A DNA stretch of 36,500 nucleotides from Arenicellales bacterium (lineage in GTDB: Bacteria; Pseudomonadota; Gammaproteobacteria; BMS3Bbin11). Position numbers and translations under genes: made by a program. Shown here in pieces: positions 3,346-28,557 of the stretch; position 1 is the first letter of the stretch; each line of letters opens with the position of its first letter. The notes under the pieces are model-generated. The model made no database searches and had not been told where the DNA came from. It worked only from the letters and a program-made list of their open reading frames with translations. The stretch is from contig JARFQE010000052.1 of assembly GCA_029287915.1 (NCBI GenBank), forward strand, positions 1-36,500, read 5' to 3'.

Positions 3346-4158
3346 TCAACACTTAAGGCGCCGATGCTTTAGAGATGGCAGGTTCTTTCGAATATCGCCG
3401 AGCAAGTCAAGGTCAATCTCGGATAATACAACACCAGGCCCCCTCGAAAGACGATTGATTATCCTGCCCCAGGGGTCGACAATCATGGAATCACCAAAGG
3501 TTTCTCTGCCGTTTACATGAAATCCACCCTGAGCAGCTGCCACCAGGTAAGACTGATTCTCGATTGCCCGAGCTCGTACCAGAACTTCCCAGTGTACACT
3601 TCCTGTTATCGCGGTAAATGAAGATGGGACGGCAAGGATTTGAGCACCTTTTTCCGATAATTGTCGAAATAGTTCAGGAAACCGCAAATCATAGCAAATT
3701 GCCAGACCAAGGCGGCCGAAGGGTGTATCTACTACAACAATATCTTCTCCAGCTTCGATGGTTGCAGACTCTGTATAGGCCTCTGCATTATTCAAATCAA
3801 CATCGAACAGATGGATCTTGTCGTAACGCGCAACACGTTCACCCAGATTATTGTAAACCAGACATGCACTACGACATTTTTCTGGATTTTCTGTTGCCAA
3901 TGGGACAGTGCCGCCGACTAGCCAGATCTTATGTCGGCGGGCAGCTTCAGCAAGAAAATTCTGTATATGTCCATCATCAACCAGCTCGACTTCACGCAGG
4001 CGATCAACATCCTTCATTGGCATTAGACAAAAATTCTCTGGCAACACAATTAGCTTCGCCCCGGATTCCGCAGCCTGGGTGATTAACCTCCCGGCTTCGA
4101 AAAGATTAGCGGCAACGTCTGGCCCTGATGTCATTTGTATTGCAGCAACTTGTGTCAT
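3346..4158 (-). CDS. Carbon-nitrogen hydrolase, Nit1/Nit2 type (probable deaminated-glutathione amidase)
   Basis: 270-residue nitrilase-superfamily amidase. The catalytic triad is visible: Glu41 (LPENFC), Lys114 (RYDKIHLFDVD) and Cys155 (ICYDLRFPELF). The DKIHLFDVD and CYDLRFPELFR motifs match the Nit1/Nit2/YbeM branch, which hydrolyses deaminated glutathione to 2-oxoglutarate and cysteinylglycine as metabolite repair. Substrate specificity is inferred from motif similarity, not proven; omega-amidase activity on other 2-oxoacid amides is possible. Its position between yhdP and tldD on the same strand is a common gammaproteobacterial arrangement. The C-terminus (LKHRRLKC) is short and basic. 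Confidence 0.88.
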   Translation of the reverse strand: MTQVAAIQMTSGPDVAANLFEAGRLITQAAESGAKLIVLPENFCLMPMKDVDRLREVELVDDGHIQNFLAEAARRHKIWLVGGTVPLATENPEKCRSACLVYNNLGERVARYDKIHLFDVDLNNAEAYTESATIEAGEDIVVVDTPFGRLGLAICYDLRFPELFRQLSEKGAQILAVPSSFTAITGSVHWEVLVRARAIENQSYLVAAAQGGFHVNGRETFGDSMIVDPWGRIINRLSRGPGVVLSEIDLDLLGDIRKNLPSLKHRRLKC

Positions 4159-17749: not shown

Positions 17750-18052
17750 CTATTTATCACCCGCTTCCAGTAAAGTACTATCGCTATCCCAGTCTGCGAA
17801 GGGGTAAGGTTTCACTTCACTATTGAAAGTCAGGAATTGCAGTATTCTATAAGCATACTGGCTCAGCAAGGAACCAAGACCGAGCAGGCGCTGGTTTTTT
17901 TCACCAGTGAACAATAGCACCAGCAACTGAAACATCACCAGCGCAGCAATCAGTATTTCTACAATATTAAAAATGATAACAAAGATCACCATATATAGAA
18001 TACGCATCCAGGTGTTATTGTCTTTCAGACTTTCTTTTATGTGGTCGTTCAT
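17750..18052 (-). CDS. DUF4389 membrane protein
   Basis: 100-residue protein with two adjacent hydrophobic helices (around residues 17-47) and the family's conserved [22 protein letters not shown] stretch read in two parts: [11 protein letters not shown] and [10 protein letters not shown]. It fits DUF4389, a gammaproteobacterial membrane family of unknown function. It is the first gene of the leuS operon here, with an extended -10 promoter upstream. The co-location with leuS is recurrent in related bacteria as far as I recall, but no role follows from it. Confidence 0.85.
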
Positions 18053-19422: not shown

Positions 19423-20634
19423 CTATGACCTTAATGCGTCAACAGGATGCAGTTCTGCTGCCTTAATTGCAGGATAGGTTGCTGAAACAACGCCGGCAAG
19501 CAATGCAACGACAAAGCCTGTGCTGATGGTTCTCGAATCAAATAATACCGGTAGATCAAACCAGCTGGCCACGATAATTCCAGTTCCCCAGCCAGCCAGC
19601 AGGCCGACAGTTCCACCAATAACAGCCAGCAATACACCTTCAATCATGAATTGCTGAATAATATCGCTTTTTGTTGCCCCAACCGCTCTTCTTAAGCCTA
19701 TCTCGCTACGACGGGTATTAACACTAACCAGCATCACATTCAAAACGCCAGCAATCCCAACAGCAAGGATGATGCTGGAGATTCCGAGCAGAAATACCTC
19801 AAGCATGTTTTGAAACTGTTTTTTCTTGATTAGCAGTTCATAGGGAATAACCATTTCCAGTTTATGCTGCCTGAATCTGCCAGCTCCAAATACACGCTGA
19901 AGCAAAGGGGTTGCGGCCGGAATACGCTGATCATCAACGAACTTTAGCATAAGTTGGCTGAACTCCAGATCGTCAACAGCGTCGGCGGTCATCACTGTCA
20001 TTGGAACATAAATCGAGTGTGCTATATCTGGCATCTCGAAACCAGAAAGTTTCATCACCGGTAATTTATCTGCAGCCAGCACACCAATTATGGTGAACCA
20101 TTCATTGCCAAGTCGAAGCATCTGGCCACTCACCTGAGTAGTTGCAAACAATTCCATTGCAGACTCATGACCAAGTACTGCTACCCGCTGCCTATGCCTT
20201 AAATCATACGGTGCCAGGAATCTTCCGCTAGCAATTGCAAGCGAAAATACTTCTCGATAGGCGGAACTGGTTGCAACCAGTCGGACACGTTTTGACTTGC
20301 GATTGATATAAGCATTTCGATATTCATGCTGAACCGGTGCCATTGCATGCAGCTCTTTCCCCATCAATTTGTTCAGGCTAAACAACATCTCTGAATTCAA
20401 CTGCGGCAAGCCATCACTCGACGTGCTATTGACTATCACTGTGTTGGTACCAAGCACACCAATTGCTCGCGAAAACTCCTGTCGTGCACCGAGGCCCATG
20501 GCAACGACGACCACAAAACCCATCACGCCAATCGCAATGCCGGCAATACTTAGTAATGCCTGCAGACGCTTTACCTGCCACATTTTGAAGGCAGGATAGA
20601 TATAGCTGAAAAGATTCGGACTACTGTCCTGCAT
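19423..20634 (-). CDS. MacB/FtsX-type ABC transporter permease
   Basis: 403-residue permease with the MacB layout: one N-terminal membrane helix (about residues 25-48), a large periplasmic core domain, then three helices in the C-terminal FtsX domain (around residues 280-300, 330-360 and 370-390). The segment RRSEIGLRRAVGATKSDIIQQFMIEG between helices is the typical FtsX coupling region, read here as RRSEIGLRRAVGA and IIQQFMIEG. Type VII ABC systems of this sort use mechanotransmission to push periplasmic substrates through a TolC-like duct. In E. coli MacB the ATPase is fused to the permease; here it is the separate neighbouring gene, which overlaps by 14 bases. Substrate unknown. Confidence 0.9.
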   Translation of the reverse strand: MQDSSPNLFSYIYPAFKMWQVKRLQALLSIAGIAIGVMGFVVVVAMGLGARQEFSRAIGVLGTNTVIVNSTSSDGLPQLNSEMLFSLNKLMGKELHAMAPVQHEYRNAYINRKSKRVRLVATSSAYREVFSLAIASGRFLAPYDLRHRQRVAVLGHESAMELFATTQVSGQMLRLGNEWFTIIGVLAADKLPVMKLSGFEMPDIAHSIYVPMTVMTADAVDDLEFSQLMLKFVDDQRIPAATPLLQRVFGAGRFRQHKLEMVIPYELLIKKKQFQNMLEVFLLGISSIILAVGIAGVLNVMLVSVNTRRSEIGLRRAVGATKSDIIQQFMIEGVLLAVIGGTVGLLAGWGTGIIVASWFDLPVLFDSRTISTGFVVALLAGVVSATYPAIKAAELHPVDALRS

Positions 20635-21295
20635 GATGTTTGAGTTCGCCGTCCTGCATGGTAAATATTTTGCCTGCAGCTCTGGCTACAGTTTCATCAT
20701 GCGTAATCAGGACTATAGTCAGTCCCTCTGCATTCAGGCCCCTCAGCATGTTAACGATTTCAACGGAATTGCGCCGATCAAGATTTCCTGTAGGCTCGTC
20801 CGCCAGCAATATGCGCGGACGGTTGAACAAAGCACGTGCGATCGCAACACGTTGGCTTTCACCGCCGGATAGCTGGCCGGGAAGATGTGACAGGCGGTGC
20901 CCAAGACCCACTTGCTTAAGCAATCCTATCGCACGCTGCCGGCCATCGAAATGCGACATACCGGAATAGAAACCTGGAATTGCAACATTATCCGGCAGAT
21001 CAAGATAATCAACAAATATTGTAGACTGAAAAACGAAACCAAGTTTTCGATTGCGGATTTCTGCCAGTGCCCTGTCATCCATTTTCGAAATGGTATTCTG
21101 CTCAAGGATAAAGCTTCCTGAGTCAGCGATATCAAGACAACCCAGAAGGTTTAGCAAGGTAGACTTACCGGTGCCGGAAGGCCCCATTATGGCCACGAAA
21201 TCTCCCTCTGCGATATCCAGTGAAAGCTTTTTCAGTACAGTTATTTTCTGTCCCGGCAGGGTATAGCTTTTATCAATCGCGCGAACCTGAATCAC
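20621..21295 (-). CDS. ABC transporter ATPase, LolD/MacB type
   Basis: 224-residue nucleotide-binding subunit. Walker A is GPSGTGKST at residues 38-46, the ABC signature is LSGGESQRVAIARAL from residue 142, Walker B is ILLADEP near 162-168, and the switch histidine lies in LITHDE. It should power the adjacent permease as a dimer at the inner membrane. The start overlaps the adaptor stop (ATGA), and the end overlaps the permease start. The LolD-like sequence alone would also suit lipoprotein release, but the adaptor and TolC-like gene upstream point to trans-envelope efflux. Confidence 0.93.
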   Translation of the reverse strand: MIQVRAIDKSYTLPGQKITVLKKLSLDIAEGDFVAIMGPSGTGKSTLLNLLGCLDIADSGSFILEQNTISKMDDRALAEIRNRKLGFVFQSTIFVDYLDLPDNVAIPGFYSGMSHFDGRQRAIGLLKQVGLGHRLSHLPGQLSGGESQRVAIARALFNRPRILLADEPTGNLDRRNSVEIVNMLRGLNAEGLTIVLITHDETVARAAGKIFTMQDGELKHHAGQ

Positions 21296-22764
21296 GAGCT
21301 TGGCTCATCTAGCAATACTTTGCGTGGATCATGCAAAAGCAGTTTTTCTCCGCCTGTAAGCCCTTTGGTCACTACAACAAAGTGGCCGTCACTGGAACCT
21401 GTCTCAATTTCAACCGGTTCAATCCCGTTCATCTTCCACAAAAAACTCACTGCCTGGTCACCCGAATAAAACACCGCCTCTACCGGCACCCGCACGACAT
21501 CTTTCAGATGTGCTGCCTGTATTCGGGCGCGTACTGTCATACCTGGCCGAAGTTTTGGGTCAATGCCATTAATTGCTACACGAACTAGAAACCTCGGCAT
21601 TTCTTCATTCTTACCGGTTGCCAGTGTGCCAATAGTTTCCACGCGCCCTTCCAGTAGCATATTGGGATAGGCCTGGGGGCGGACTAATGCAGTCTGCCCG
21701 ACTTCAAGCTGAGCAATGTCCGTCTCACGTATTTTCAGATCAGTGATGATTTCGGACATATCAGGTAACACGATGAACCCGTTATGCTGCCAGACAGAAT
21801 CCCCGACCTGTACTTTGCGCATTTCTCCCTGTACCGAGACCTTCTTATATACAACGAAACCTGGCACAGGAGCGGTCAGCACGGTTTTATCTAGCATGGC
21901 TTCAGCTGACTTGAGCGATTTCTTCAGTTCATCATAGCGATGATTTAATCGAATCAGCGCAGCATTTTTCAATGCCATTTTGTGCTGGCTAACCTTTTTC
22001 TGCTCAGCGACTTTTCGCTCAAGTTCAGACAGCTTGAGTTCTGACTGACGTAACTCGCCAGGTGCAATCATCTCATCTAACAGGTGATCCTGCTGCTTTG
22101 CCAGTTCCAGCTCAGCACCTGCTGCATCAATTGCTACCTTTGCCTGTTCATATTCATGGCGCTTGGTAAAGCCCTGATCAAGCAGATCTTTCATTGAGCT
22201 GGCTTTTTTCCTGGCCAGCCTGTATTTCTGTTCTGCTGCCTGCAGGTCATTTCTGGACTTTGCCCTGCGTAGCGGTAACTCCGCATCTTTCAGTTTATTG
22301 TGTTTGAGGCGGGCGACCTCAAGGTCGTGAGTGATGCTCTCTGTGTTCGCCTTGCCTTGCTGTATCGTAAGCTGTAGTTCTTCCTCTGCCTGTGCAAGTG
22401 CCGCTCTGGCATCGCTGAGTTCAGCCGTCAATTTGGCAATATCTTCAACAAAAGGAGATCTATCAAACTTTACGATAACATCACCTGGGTTGACGGGGGC
22501 TCCTTCTTGCTTGAGGAAAATTATCTTCGCCTTATTACTGGGTAATTCAGAAGCGAGTGTGACGGAGCGTCGTGCTTCGAGAATACCTGACTCGATGATG
22601 GCAATATCAAATGTGCCCTGGTCAGCCCTGGCAACAATGGGTTGCTGAAACAGCGACTTTTCAATATCTTCATTGCTGGCGGGCAGCAATGAAAAAGCAG
22701 CGTAGACAGCAAGCAGGGCGACAGCCCCTGTTATTGCACTTTTTTTCCCTGTGGTAATTGCCAT
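21292..22764 (-). CDS. HlyD/MacA-family periplasmic adaptor
   Basis: 490-residue membrane-fusion protein. A single N-terminal helix lies at about residues 10-28. It is followed by a biotinyl-lipoyl-like half (VNPGDVIVKFD), a long Lys/Glu/Ala-rich coiled coil roughly from 110 to 300, the returning lipoyl half (LTAPVPGFVVYKK), and beta-barrel and membrane-proximal domains (LRPGMTVRARIQ). The coiled coil is longer than that of MacA (371 residues in all), more like HlyD-type adaptors. It links the permease to the outer-membrane channel. It overlaps the upstream TolC-like gene by 34 bases and the downstream ATPase gene by 4. Confidence 0.9.
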   Translation of the reverse strand: MAITTGKKSAITGAVALLAVYAAFSLLPASNEDIEKSLFQQPIVARADQGTFDIAIIESGILEARRSVTLASELPSNKAKIIFLKQEGAPVNPGDVIVKFDRSPFVEDIAKLTAELSDARAALAQAEEELQLTIQQGKANTESITHDLEVARLKHNKLKDAELPLRRAKSRNDLQAAEQKYRLARKKASSMKDLLDQGFTKRHEYEQAKVAIDAAGAELELAKQQDHLLDEMIAPGELRQSELKLSELERKVAEQKKVSQHKMALKNAALIRLNHRYDELKKSLKSAEAMLDKTVLTAPVPGFVVYKKVSVQGEMRKVQVGDSVWQHNGFIVLPDMSEIITDLKIRETDIAQLEVGQTALVRPQAYPNMLLEGRVETIGTLATGKNEEMPRFLVRVAINGIDPKLRPGMTVRARIQAAHLKDVVRVPVEAVFYSGDQAVSFLWKMNGIEPVEIETGSSDGHFVVVTKGLTGGEKLLLHDPRKVLLDEPSS

Positions 22765-24161
22765 TTGTCTCTCAATTGGCCACTAATGAGGTCAAGATTA
22801 AGCCTTGCCAGCAATAGATCTATACGTGCTGTCAGGCTGGATTGTTTAGCCTGCGCCAGATCACGCTGGCTTTCCAGTAACTCAATAACATCTATCTGGC
22901 CATCATCATATCTCTTTTTAGCCAGTGTAAAACGTTTTTCTCCCAGCTTCTCTGTCCTTAGTGCGAGCTGAAACTTTTCTTCATTTCGTGACATCTGCCT
23001 GAGGGCACTGCGTATTTCTGTCTTGACCATCGATGCGAGGTGTTTGTAGCTTCTTTCAGCCTGATTATATTCGAGGACAGCCAGCCTGGACTGGTTTTTT
23101 TCAGTCGCAAGAGCAAAATCGGTCGATACATTCAAACCTAAACCAACACGCCTGTCATCTACCGCAAAAGTATCATCGAGAGATTCTCCCTGGCCTACCA
23201 GTGCATAATGGATGCTCAGGTCAACAGGAGGGCCAATTCGTTGCGTGATTATATTCATCCTTTGCAGGGCATGATCCCTGCTTTCCTTGATGGCGATGAT
23301 CTCAAGACGATGGTTCAACGCCATTTGCTGCAGTACTTCAGGCTTCTGTGGTTTGTATAATGAGTCCTCAAGCGTCAGCAAGGAAAAATCAAAATCTACC
23401 TGATCTTCTGGGTTCAGGCCAATCAACATCTTGAGCTTGTCAATATTCTGTTGCAGTAAGGCCTCAGCATCTTTAACTGTCTGACTGGAGTGGGCGGCAT
23501 TCAGATCTGCCTGTTCAACATCAAAACTCGAAGCGAGGCCATTTTGATATCTGGCTTTGACAGATGCGACCAGCCTGGATGATGCTGCCTGCGCTGCCTG
23601 CTGCACGGCTATACCCTGTTCTGCCAGGTATGCACGATACCATGCCTGTATCACTCTTACAGTAAGCTCTTCAGCACCGACCTCACTGATTCGCTGGCTG
23701 TGATTTCTATCACTTTCTGCTTTCTTAAGTGCCAGCACGCCGCTGCGTTCCGGGTCAGAAAACAGGGGGCGCGTATACTGCACTCTCAGCTCACTTAAGG
23801 CACTGCTGTCAAACTGCGAAGCATACATACCCGCCTCAACTCTTGATCCATCACCCAACTTGCGACTGAGCGATATTCTGTATTGCTGACCAATGTCAGC
23901 GCCGACCACAGCATCAGACCGCAGTGAAGCATTGAAATGTGTGCGAAAAGCGGAACGCGCAACATCCAGTGACATATCAGACTTTTTTACCGTGTCGAGT
24001 ACCTGCTGGTACTCGTAATTGCCATTAAACGCCAGGCGGATTGCATCATGCAGGTCCATTCCTGCATATGAGCTCTGGCCAGCCAGCAACAATACAAATG
24101 CCAGTAGATACTGAGTAAAGTGCCTGGGTATTGTGAAACAGGAACAAAAAGAGGACTTCAT
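22731..24161 (-). CDS. TolC-family outer-membrane channel protein
   Basis: 476-residue outer-membrane efflux protein. A signal peptide occupies roughly residues 1-33 (hydrophobic YLLAFVLLLAG, probable cleavage after SSYA). The mature part is mostly long alpha helices with the internal duplication expected for TolC-type trimers; the helical segments near LVASVKARYQNGLASSFDVEQ and KRFTLAKKRYDDGQIDVIEL are the paired repeat motifs of the family. It is the first gene of the four overlapping efflux genes, giving the cluster its own dedicated exit duct. No strong Shine-Dalgarno precedes the ATG. Confidence 0.88.
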   Translation of the reverse strand: MKSSFCSCFTIPRHFTQYLLAFVLLLAGQSSYAGMDLHDAIRLAFNGNYEYQQVLDTVKKSDMSLDVARSAFRTHFNASLRSDAVVGADIGQQYRISLSRKLGDGSRVEAGMYASQFDSSALSELRVQYTRPLFSDPERSGVLALKKAESDRNHSQRISEVGAEELTVRVIQAWYRAYLAEQGIAVQQAAQAASSRLVASVKARYQNGLASSFDVEQADLNAAHSSQTVKDAEALLQQNIDKLKMLIGLNPEDQVDFDFSLLTLEDSLYKPQKPEVLQQMALNHRLEIIAIKESRDHALQRMNIITQRIGPPVDLSIHYALVGQGESLDDTFAVDDRRVGLGLNVSTDFALATEKNQSRLAVLEYNQAERSYKHLASMVKTEIRSALRQMSRNEEKFQLALRTEKLGEKRFTLAKKRYDDGQIDVIELLESQRDLAQAKQSSLTARIDLLLARLNLDLISGQLRDKWQLPQGKKVQ

Positions 24162-24273
24162 CAGGCAATAATGATAACAGCAGGAACAGACAGTGCAGTA
24201 CCAGTACGATCCGTGTGATTCAGCATTTCAGGTTTACCTGCTGCAGAGCAGATTGTTAGAAATTGCCTGTTAA

Positions 24274-25113
24274 TTACCTGGTACCTGTTGCATTGTAAGT
24301 GACAGCTTGTCCACCCGGTAAGCTACCATCTGCACCGACATTTATCAGGAAGCTCAGCGTTTGCGACCCTGAGATGGATCCTGCCAGCTGAAATAAAGTC
24401 TGAGATCCACCATAAGTACCGTTCGAACTGGCTGTAAATGATTCACCCGCGATAGTACCAGTAAGCTGCGCAGGAAAGTTTGCATTGCTGGAAAGCTGTA
24501 ATATATTCAGTTGTGTCCCAATAATCTCCAGTTGTAGAACCAGGGCATCGATAAGTACTGGCAGATTCCCGGGGTTGCTGGCGACTGACGCAGTTACATT
24601 GTAGGTACCGGCCAGCCCGCCTTCAGCCCCGCCCAAATCATCATCTCCAGAATCTCCATCGCCGGTGCCAGGATCTACAGGGTCTCCAGCATCAGGTATA
24701 TTGCTGTCAGAATCACTGTCAGAATCACTATCTCCACCGGAACTGGCTGCCAGTAACAAAAGTGCCGCTCCAGCGGTAATAGCAGTAACTGTCATCGCTT
24801 TTGTACCAAAAAACTCTGAACCCCCAATGGAAATGGTTTTGATTACATTACCTGCCGGGTCATACAATATATAAACTCCACTTTGCTTGAAATCATGTTC
24901 CAGTATAGCCTTGTCATCTGTTACCTTCTGGGTTTTTGATCCATCAGGAGCAGTAATCGTGATAATGGTCCGTGCCAGCGGCTGTCCATTTCCATCAATC
25001 ATCGACAGGTGCTTGGTGACTGCATTTGCGGCCGGTGCAAGTGTCACAAGAAAAATACTGAGAATCAGTGAAATGACGCTGTATCGGTTCAGTTGGAAAT
25101 GTATGGCTAGCAA
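24274..25113 (-). CDS. Exported protein of unknown function with Ser-Asp linker
   Basis: 279 residues, not recognised. Visible parts: a signal peptide (residues 1-31, ending PAANA); a compact beta-type region (32-100, MIDGNGQPLARTIITIT) resembling a carboxypeptidase-regulatory or CNA_B-like fold; a hydrophobic stretch (about 104-122, AITAGAALLLLAA) that could be a membrane helix; a linker rich in Ser, Asp and Gly (SGGDSDSDSDSDSN, then GTGDGDSGDDD); and a C-terminal Ser/Thr/Asn/Gly-rich beta domain (168-279) beginning LAGTYNVTASV. The start is a TTG preceded by AGAGGA; no upstream ATG fits. It lies 112 bases ahead of the tolC-like gene on the same strand, so it may be cargo, a companion, or simply a neighbour of the exporter. 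Confidence 0.7.
   Translation of the reverse strand: MLAIHFQLNRYSVISLILSIFLVTLAPAANAVTKHLSMIDGNGQPLARTIITITAPDGSKTQKVTDDKAILEHDFKQSGVYILYDPAGNVIKTISIGGSEFFGTKAMTVTAITAGAALLLLAASSGGDSDSDSDSDSNIPDAGDPVDPGTGDGDSGDDDLGGAEGGLAGTYNVTASVASNPGNLPVLIDALVLQLEIIGTQLNILQLSSNANFPAQLTGTIAGESFTASSNGTYGGSQTLFQLAGSISGSQTLSFLINVGADGSLPGGQAVTYNATGTR
24704..24727. repeat. Tandem 12-base repeat coding for the Ser-Asp linker
   Basis: CTGTCAGAATCA occurs twice in tandem (24704-24715, 24716-24727), followed by a diverged fragment. On the minus strand it encodes alternating Ser and Asp in the linker of the exported protein. Tandem units of this kind can change length by slippage while keeping frame. Confidence 0.7.
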
Positions 25114-25268
25114 TTCAGTATCCTCTTCTCATTATCTCTCATTATCATCATTGTTCTGGCAAGCAGTTCGTTCGATTATGACTCCATATACTCCTATTTA
25201 AATGGAAACAAATCAATTCTCTATAATTTTCAGCGATGACAAATTTTGTAAAAATATTCTTCTGTCTA

Positions 25269-27637: not shown

Positions 27638-27955
27638 ATGAACGAAATTCTTGGCCTGCTCATTATAGTGCTGATCATATATATCTGGTACAGGAACCTT
27701 ACTGTAAGAGAACTGGCAATGATACATTCAAGCCATGCCTGCAAGAAAAGAGGCTTACAGCTACTTGATGACAGTGTCCACCTTTCAGGCCTGTCTCTAA
27801 GCCGTTGTCCTGATCGAGGTCGCTGTCTGCGACGCCGATATAGATTTGCCTACTCCAGCGATAATATCAACCGCATCAGTGGAGTCACTATCATGCTCGG
27901 AAATCAGCTTGAAAGTATTGTCTTCTCGTCTCCACCAAATTCGCTACAGGCATGA
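27638..27955 (+). CDS. DUF3301 membrane-anchored protein
   Basis: About 105 residues from MNEILGLLIIVLIIYIWY, which gives one N-terminal membrane helix. The helix is followed by a short cytoplasmic domain containing GLSLSRCPDRGRCLRRRYRFAYS read as GLSLSRCPDRG and CLRRRYRFAYS, the DUF3301 core. An in-frame ATG-type start at 27617 gives seven extra polar residues; the later ATG begins directly at the membrane helix and fits the family better. The function is unknown. Its stop overlaps the start of the radical SAM gene by four bases (ATGA), so the two are translationally coupled. Confidence 0.82.
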   Translation: MNEILGLLIIVLIIYIWYRNLTVRELAMIHSSHACKKRGLQLLDDSVHLSGLSLSRCPDRGRCLRRRYRFAYSSDNINRISGVTIMLGNQLESIVFSSPPNSLQA

Positions 27956-28557
27956 TAGACCAGACTATTGCCTATACTATTGGTGATCGCTGCTATCTCA
28001 GCATTACCGACCGCTGCACACTTGCCTGCAAGTTCTGTCCCAAGACGCAGGGTTCGATGCAGGTTCATGAATACGATCTAACATTCAACCACCGACCTGA
28101 TACAGATGAAATAATAGCGGCTATTGGTGATGTTAGTGATTATTCATGGATCGTTTTCTGCGGTTTTGGCGAACCAACACTACGATTAAAAACCCTGCTT
28201 GAAGTATCAGATTACATCAAGCAACGAGGTGGTCGTGTTCGCCTGAATACCGATGGACTAGCCAACCTGGTACACAGGAGAAATGTCATACCCGAGCTAG
28301 CAGAGTGCATTGATGCCATGTCAGTCTCACTCAACGCTCAAAATGAACCCATCTACAATCTTCATTGTGCACCGGCACTGGAACATTCCTGGCAGGCCAT
28401 GCTGGATTTTCTTGAGCTGGCATCGGTTTCGATTCCGCATGTCACGGCTACCGCCATAAATGGGCTGGCAGGTGTTGATATCGCTGCCTGTCGCTCTCTT
28501 GCAAAACAACGCGGCGTTAAATTTTTTAGACAGCGCGAACTGGATCTTGTTGGATAG
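27952..28557 (+). CDS. Radical SAM protein of the TatD-linked type
   Basis: 201 residues with a CxxxCxxC iron-sulfur cluster motif at Cys22, Cys26 and Cys29 (RCTLACKFCPKTQG) and the SAM-binding GFGEP at 71-75. The short length and the CPKTQG sequence after the cluster match the family named for genes near tatD nucleases. Its reaction is unknown. No tatD gene lies in this window; the nearest nuclease gene is the PHP-domain one three genes upstream. A short radical SAM protein like this has only a partial barrel, typical for the family, and I see no sign of truncation. The start overlaps the DUF3301 stop. Confidence 0.82.
   Translation: MIDQTIAYTIGDRCYLSITDRCTLACKFCPKTQGSMQVHEYDLTFNHRPDTDEIIAAIGDVSDYSWIVFCGFGEPTLRLKTLLEVSDYIKQRGGRVRLNTDGLANLVHRRNVIPELAECIDAMSVSLNAQNEPIYNLHCAPALEHSWQAMLDFLELASVSIPHVTATAINGLAGVDIAACRSLAKQRGVKFFRQRELDLVG

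Follow-up and report, generated by a model that had tools for sequence, protein, structure and literature searches.

A lineage-restricted, predicted exported protein encoded at the head of a split MacB-type pump cluster in Arenicellales

The tripartite pumps MacAB-TolC and PvdRT-OpmQ belong to the type VII ATP-binding cassette (ABC) systems and combine four functions in one gene run: an outer-membrane channel, an HlyD-type adaptor, a MacB-type ATPase and a MacB_PCD/FtsX permease. Several further systems of this type act together with a partner outside the cytoplasm, as described for YbbAP-TesA, FtsEX-EnvC and LolCDE-LolA (PMC12646458); in Bacillus, YknW is co-transcribed with YknXYZ (PMC5985334); and the Aat system, built from a TolC-like channel, an adaptor, a LolD-like ATPase and a LolC/E-like permease, displays a Sec-exported protein, CexE/dispersin, at the cell surface (PMC7943197). 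Here we analyse a 36,500-nucleotide stretch of DNA from a member of the Arenicellales (the window; positions 1 to 36,500 of JARFQE010000052.1 in GCA_029287915.1, contig C62 of genome G000 in our comparisons), in which a gene that we call X encodes an exported two-domain protein at the head of a pump cluster with the same four functions. The host group of X consists of little-known marine bacteria.

By their domain content, the genes at 19423-24161 encode a tripartite pump of the MacB kind (type VII ABC) in split form, with a putative role in export. All on the minus strand, they encode an outer-membrane factor (OMF) of the TolC family (22731..24161; OEP, PF02321, 1.8e-24), a 490-residue HlyD/MacA-like periplasmic adaptor (membrane fusion protein, MFP; 21292..22764; HlyD_D23, PF16576, 2.2e-07), an ABC ATPase of LolD/MacB type (20621..21295; ABC_tran, PF00005, 4.5e-28) and a MacB-type permease (19423..20634; MacB_PCD, PF12704, 1.9e-28, and FtsX, PF02687, 1.1e-20). 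The cluster departs from MacAB-TolC and PvdRT-OpmQ in that ATPase and permease are separate open reading frames (ORFs), whereas NF007826, the model for MacB, describes a single chain of 648 positions, and in that an extra exported two-domain gene leads it. It differs from YbbAP-TesA, FtsEX-EnvC and LolCDE-LolA by including an outer-membrane channel and an adaptor, and X, whose C-terminal domain is a predicted eight-stranded barrel, matches no Pfam family of such partners. X resembles YknW as an extra, probably co-transcribed protein beside a MacA/MacB-like pump, but YknW is described as a membrane protein (PMC5985334), whereas X is a predicted exported protein with two domains, and the pump beside it includes a channel in the outer membrane.

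The original prediction held that X and the pump together might form an undescribed system. The pump type is a known one, and X is a new exported companion of it, not a new kind of system; open-licence PMC papers yielded no description of the X protein or of such an exported component of a MacB-type tripartite pump. We favour, at a probability of roughly 40%, the reading that X is an exported partner of this pump and the first gene of a five-gene unit.

Conservation of gene X and its linkage to the pump

Gene X (24274..25113, minus strand) encodes 279 residues from a TTG start codon with the ribosome-binding-like sequence GAAGAGGA upstream, and lies upstream of the pump cassette on the same strand, as originally proposed. 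Homologues occur once per genome in G003 (65% identity), G001 (62%), G005 (55%) and G004 (41%). Because these are conserved and dN lies below dS (0.11 against 0.53 for the closest pair; in the other pairs synonymous sites are near or at saturation and dN is lower), X is by these measures a real gene under purifying selection, restricted to one lineage. Counting the window's own copy, it is present in 5 of the 56 genomes searched, all from a single genus, where it is found in 5 of the 7 members compared; the two members that lack it are only 60 and 75% complete. Four genus genomes are near-complete (G000, G001, G003 and G005), while G002, G004 and G006 are 60-75% complete and absences from these three are weak evidence.

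Outside the genus, none of the 369 genomes of the class that were searched with the full profile has a full-length match, and a scan of public species genomes returned three X loci, all from this genus and in metagenome-assembled genomes; scans of plasmids and of viral contigs yielded no relatives. We do not count as relatives the full-profile hits in G360 and G293, which comprise the signal-peptide region and a low-complexity stretch, or the C-domain hits in G008, G351 and contig C194 of G005 (E 0.003-0.08). The description of X as unrecognised stands: the protein of the window has no Pfam family at E<=1, no NCBIfam match above cut-off and no match in PADLOC or PHROGs. A mobile-element origin was considered and rejected, given the lack of plasmid or viral-contig relatives and of any GC contrast between X (47.7%), the pump (48.0%) and the flanks (48.2 and 46.5%).

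All four near-complete genomes of the genus share the order ygjP-mazG-X-OMF-MFP-ATPase-permease. In G007, the only sister-genus genome compared, mazG (contig C263) directly adjoins the Lon-substrate-binding gene, followed by UPF0047, a small conserved ORF and leuS, which are the window's flanks, and X is absent together with all four pump genes. Since G007 keeps the flanks without X and the pump, the five genes are present or absent here as a single block, on the testimony of one sister genome, and X seems to have been gained or lost jointly with the pump. The OMF (E<=1e-20) occurs in 4 of 56 relatives, exactly the near-complete genomes that carry X, and homologues of X are not widespread. Two further genomes provide no test of X: G002 retains the permease end of the cassette on a contig that ends inside the adaptor gene, and the contig of G006 ends 60 bases after mazG.

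The intergenic regions on either side of X behave differently. Between mazG and X lies a 30-bp block, TTGATTTGTYTYCATNNAARTAGGARTATA (25187..25216, minus strand), that aligns across four genomes with 24 of 30 columns invariant, compared with a maximum of 9 in 60 shuffles, which leave the relatedness of the genomes in; as an internal control, the X-OMF gap of the same four genomes has 3 of 30 invariant columns. This element may be a promoter or operator but is not a clean sigma-70 site in our scan, and a search for a regulon that allowed up to 3 mismatches found it just once in the genome; at up to 8 substitutions it was not found in G007, G004 or G006, the last on the contig that ends just past mazG. 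The 112-bp X-OMF gap (24162..24273, minus strand) is not conserved and contains no terminator-like site in any of the four genomes, three of whose OMF starts are estimated by homology; terminator-like matches in G003 and G005 fall past that estimated start. The strong terminator that might have separated X from the pump is thus not seen in these four genomes. Because the conserved element lies only upstream of X and the gap is free of a terminator, these data are most simply read as a pump transcript that begins with X in these genomes, with X as a separate unit in G004.

The right flank of the cassette is not constant, as G001 has other genes after the pump in place of the Lon-like gene. Directly after its pump (L015:15478-19435) are two ORFs, which we take to be a sensor-kinase-like protein and a LuxR-type response-regulator-like protein, and then an exported protein of ~380 residues. 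The last (L015:18272-19435) has an X-like layout, with a signal peptide, an N domain, a Gly/Ala-rich hydrophobic segment, a Gly/Ser linker and a small Cys-containing C domain, and belongs to no Pfam family. Elsewhere in the window, a 201-residue radical SAM protein (27952-28557) is encoded next to a DUF3301 gene, and the ORF at 17750-18052 is presumably DUF4389; the flanking gene called leuS above is likewise named from its sequence.

Anatomy and topology of the X protein

Residues 1-31 (25021..25113, minus strand, as are all the segments below) form a predicted signal peptide, with cleavage at ANA|VTKH read from the sequence by eye; all five aligned X proteins share the A[VI]TKH junction. The mature protein of ~248 residues has two predicted folded domains. 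A full-length AlphaFold model is confident for an N domain (residues 32-96) and a C domain (169-278) and of low confidence between them, so that the domains and their order, as given in the original prediction, are supported. The N-terminal domain (residues 32-97; 24823..25020) is predicted to be a small prealbumin/Ig-like beta domain, and relatives show weak family similarity in this part: the best Pfam E-values among the five homologues, 0.007, 0.015 and 0.038 for DUF4198, SpaA and CarboxypepD_reg, are below threshold strength, and none is for the X of the window. Eight weak matches to this domain occur among 398 genomes of the phylum, three of which (L065, L067 and L068) look DUF4198-like by eye.

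The N domain is followed by a Gly/Ala-rich hydrophobic segment (residues 103-124; 24742..24807) and an acidic, predicted disordered linker (residues 125-166; 24616..24741) that varies among relatives. The tandem DNA repeat said to build a Ser-Asp linker amounts to 2.2 copies of a 12-bp unit (24704-24729) and is absent from the homologues, whose linkers of 29-37 residues are mixes of Gly, Pro, Ser, Asp and Thr; this part of the description of X fares less well, and the observation is otherwise sound apart from the weight laid on the repeat. On a hydropathy scale the segment averages 1.85-2.32 in four genomes, where its insertion into a membrane would be borderline, and is much less insertable in G004. 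The sequence that follows it is acidic and nearly free of Lys and Arg, which would make the segment a poor stop-transfer anchor; in all five proteins the linker and C domain together contain only one or two Lys/Arg, with acidic residues in excess. Because of this near absence of Lys and Arg, the C-terminal half is probably exported, and a C domain in the cytoplasm would contradict the positive-inside rule. Both domains of X thus probably lie outside the cytoplasm, and the segment is probably not a simple membrane span. This weakens the suggestion of an envelope anchor with a periplasmic C domain: once the signal peptide is cleaved, a single membrane-inserted segment would leave the C domain on the cytoplasmic side, at odds with the charge pattern, and we reject this arrangement as drawn.

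The C-terminal domain (residues 167-279; 24277..24615), modelled alone from six sequences, is a predicted eight-stranded beta-barrel at a pLDDT of 93.4. Its predicted fold, an antiparallel up-and-down barrel, is shared with avidin, Cap15 and calycin-like barrels (Z about 9-11.5). In a second-look structure alignment, 100 residues align with Cap15 (Z 11.5, 2.7 A) and likewise 100 with a domain of quinohemoprotein amine dehydrogenase (Z 11.5, 2.4 A); avidins reach Z about 9-11, and the sensor domain of PknI is also among the best matches. No sequence relation to these barrels is detectable in a profile search of PDB sequences, which returned no avidin at E<=5. The hallmark of the lipocalins and calycins is an N-terminal G-x-W motif; all six aligned sequences have G-x-Y (GTY, GIY or GSY) and none has G-x-W. 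The likeness to Cap15, an effector of the CBASS defence systems, is one of fold, no PADLOC family matches X, and a defence-system reading was set aside. The C-domain relatives of G004 and G022 contain cysteines, those of G022 near the first and last strands; cysteines are commoner outside the cytoplasm.

Possible roles of X beside the pump

If X is a partner of the pump, it and the four pump genes would be transcribed as one unit, X would be exported by the Sec pathway and both of its folded domains would lie outside the cytoplasm. The Gly/Ala-rich segment would then not cross the membrane but associate with one, at its surface or within it, or else lean on the pump, and the barrel would bind whatever molecule or peptide the pump clears from the periplasm, much as extracytoplasmic partners serve other type VII ABC systems. 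The cysteines in the C-domain relatives of G004 and G022, the scarcity of Lys and Arg and a fold like that of ligand-binding barrels all favour this reading, and a partner with a binding barrel is the best fit because of the anatomy of X.

Several observations weigh against such a partnership. The X of G004 (36% identical in the alignment) adjoins a subtilisin-like protease gene on a 4.9-kb contig with no pump, no OMF was found in this genome (71% complete), and directly 3' of the gene is a strong terminator, whose hairpin has 13 pairs and a T-rich tail; its fold z is -5.4, whereas the X-OMF gap of the window gives -1.7. Two genomes of one distant genus, G219 and G099, have the four-gene pump order with no X-like gene upstream, as judged by eye, and an adaptor 27-29% identical to that of the window, so X is not universal to this pump type. 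X also evolves more rapidly than its neighbours in the pump cluster, with 54-63% identity between genomes where the pump genes have 70-80%. The barrel recurs at the C-terminus of an otherwise unrelated 675-residue exported protein in G022, with no pump at that locus, and is therefore not pump-specific. Every Foldseek E-value for the C domain is at least 0.001, and fold resemblance is by itself no proof of ligand binding.

The original interpretation is partly supported, and its pairing of X with the pump is better supported than the original prediction could show: the order conserved in four of four genomes, the joint absence in G007, the element conserved only upstream of X and the terminator-free gap uphold it, and the lone X of G004 and the distant pumps without X count against it. 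Of the loci just named, the protease gene of G004 (L008:112-3783) is divergent from the lone X gene and encodes 1223 residues with Peptidase_S8 (2.4e-54) and Asp/Pro/Gly-rich linkers. The G022 protein (L018:3371-5398) has many paired cysteines and no Pfam family, with the barrel at its end; the barrel was found in G022 alone among 36 genomes around it and, among 319 genomes of the phylum, in the window's own genome only. The pump clusters of G219 and G099 are at L070 and L071, beside genes that we take to be SEL1-like, alcohol-dehydrogenase-like and DUF547-like, and a distant adaptor in G129 is on a 3.2-kb contig.

Nearly as likely as the partnership is an independent X, an envelope or secreted protein of the genus that merely lies upstream of the pump, having been inserted at the same site or carried along. 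Such a protein could well stand alone with its own terminator, divergent from the Peptidase_S8 gene, as in G004; it would share a reusable barrel with G022, where the locus has no pump; and the genus has a second exported protein of similar layout, the one behind the pump of G001. An independent neighbour accounts less readily for the joint absence of X and pump in G007, for the order kept in all four near-complete genomes and for a conserved element that precedes X only, with no terminator in the gap.

Considerably less probable is that X is cargo, exported by Sec and carried by the MacB-type pump from periplasm to surface, as CexE/dispersin is by Aat. The two loci have in common a TolC-like channel, an adaptor, Lol-like ABC parts and a Sec-exported protein (PMC7943197). 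The X gene comes first in the cluster, and its product begins with a predicted signal peptide and has a linker and C domain nearly free of Lys and Arg. Mature X, with its two predicted folded domains, is larger than the Aat substrate and exceeds the ~10 kDa named for MacB-family substrates (PMC5985334). Nor do the five cassette genes include an AatD-like Lnt-type N-acyltransferase, the sole CN_hydrolase in the scanned ORFs of the window being ~15 kb off (3346-4158), and the N-terminal glycine looked for in an Aat-type substrate is lacking after the predicted cleavage site, where Val or Ile (A|[VI]TKH) is found in five of five proteins, with the cleavage read by eye.

Least likely of these four readings, and improbable in itself, is a membrane-tethered sensor, its segment a genuine transmembrane helix through which one domain reports the state of the envelope to the other side: the hydropathy of the segment in four genomes and the high rank of Cap15 and the sensor domain of PknI in the fold comparison would suit it, but the acidic, nearly Lys/Arg-free sequence after the segment, the much less insertable segment of G004 and the lack of any signalling domain recognised by Pfam speak against it. 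It is also quite unlikely that X is threaded by its own pump, with the N domain and segment as a periplasmic plug, the 33-42-residue linker through the OMF channel and the barrel at the surface, which would make it a MacB-driven counterpart of the N-terminally retained type I-secreted adhesins.

What the locus means depends on which of these holds. As a mere neighbour of the pump, X would be an orphan exported protein of limited interest; as cargo, it would extend the sizes known for MacB substrates. As a true partner, it would add to MacB-type tripartite pumps, which are thought to act on periplasmic substrates, an exported component that we found described nowhere in the papers searched. The cassette has clean boundaries, being present in one genus and missing from its sister, which makes the unit readily testable in a laboratory strain.
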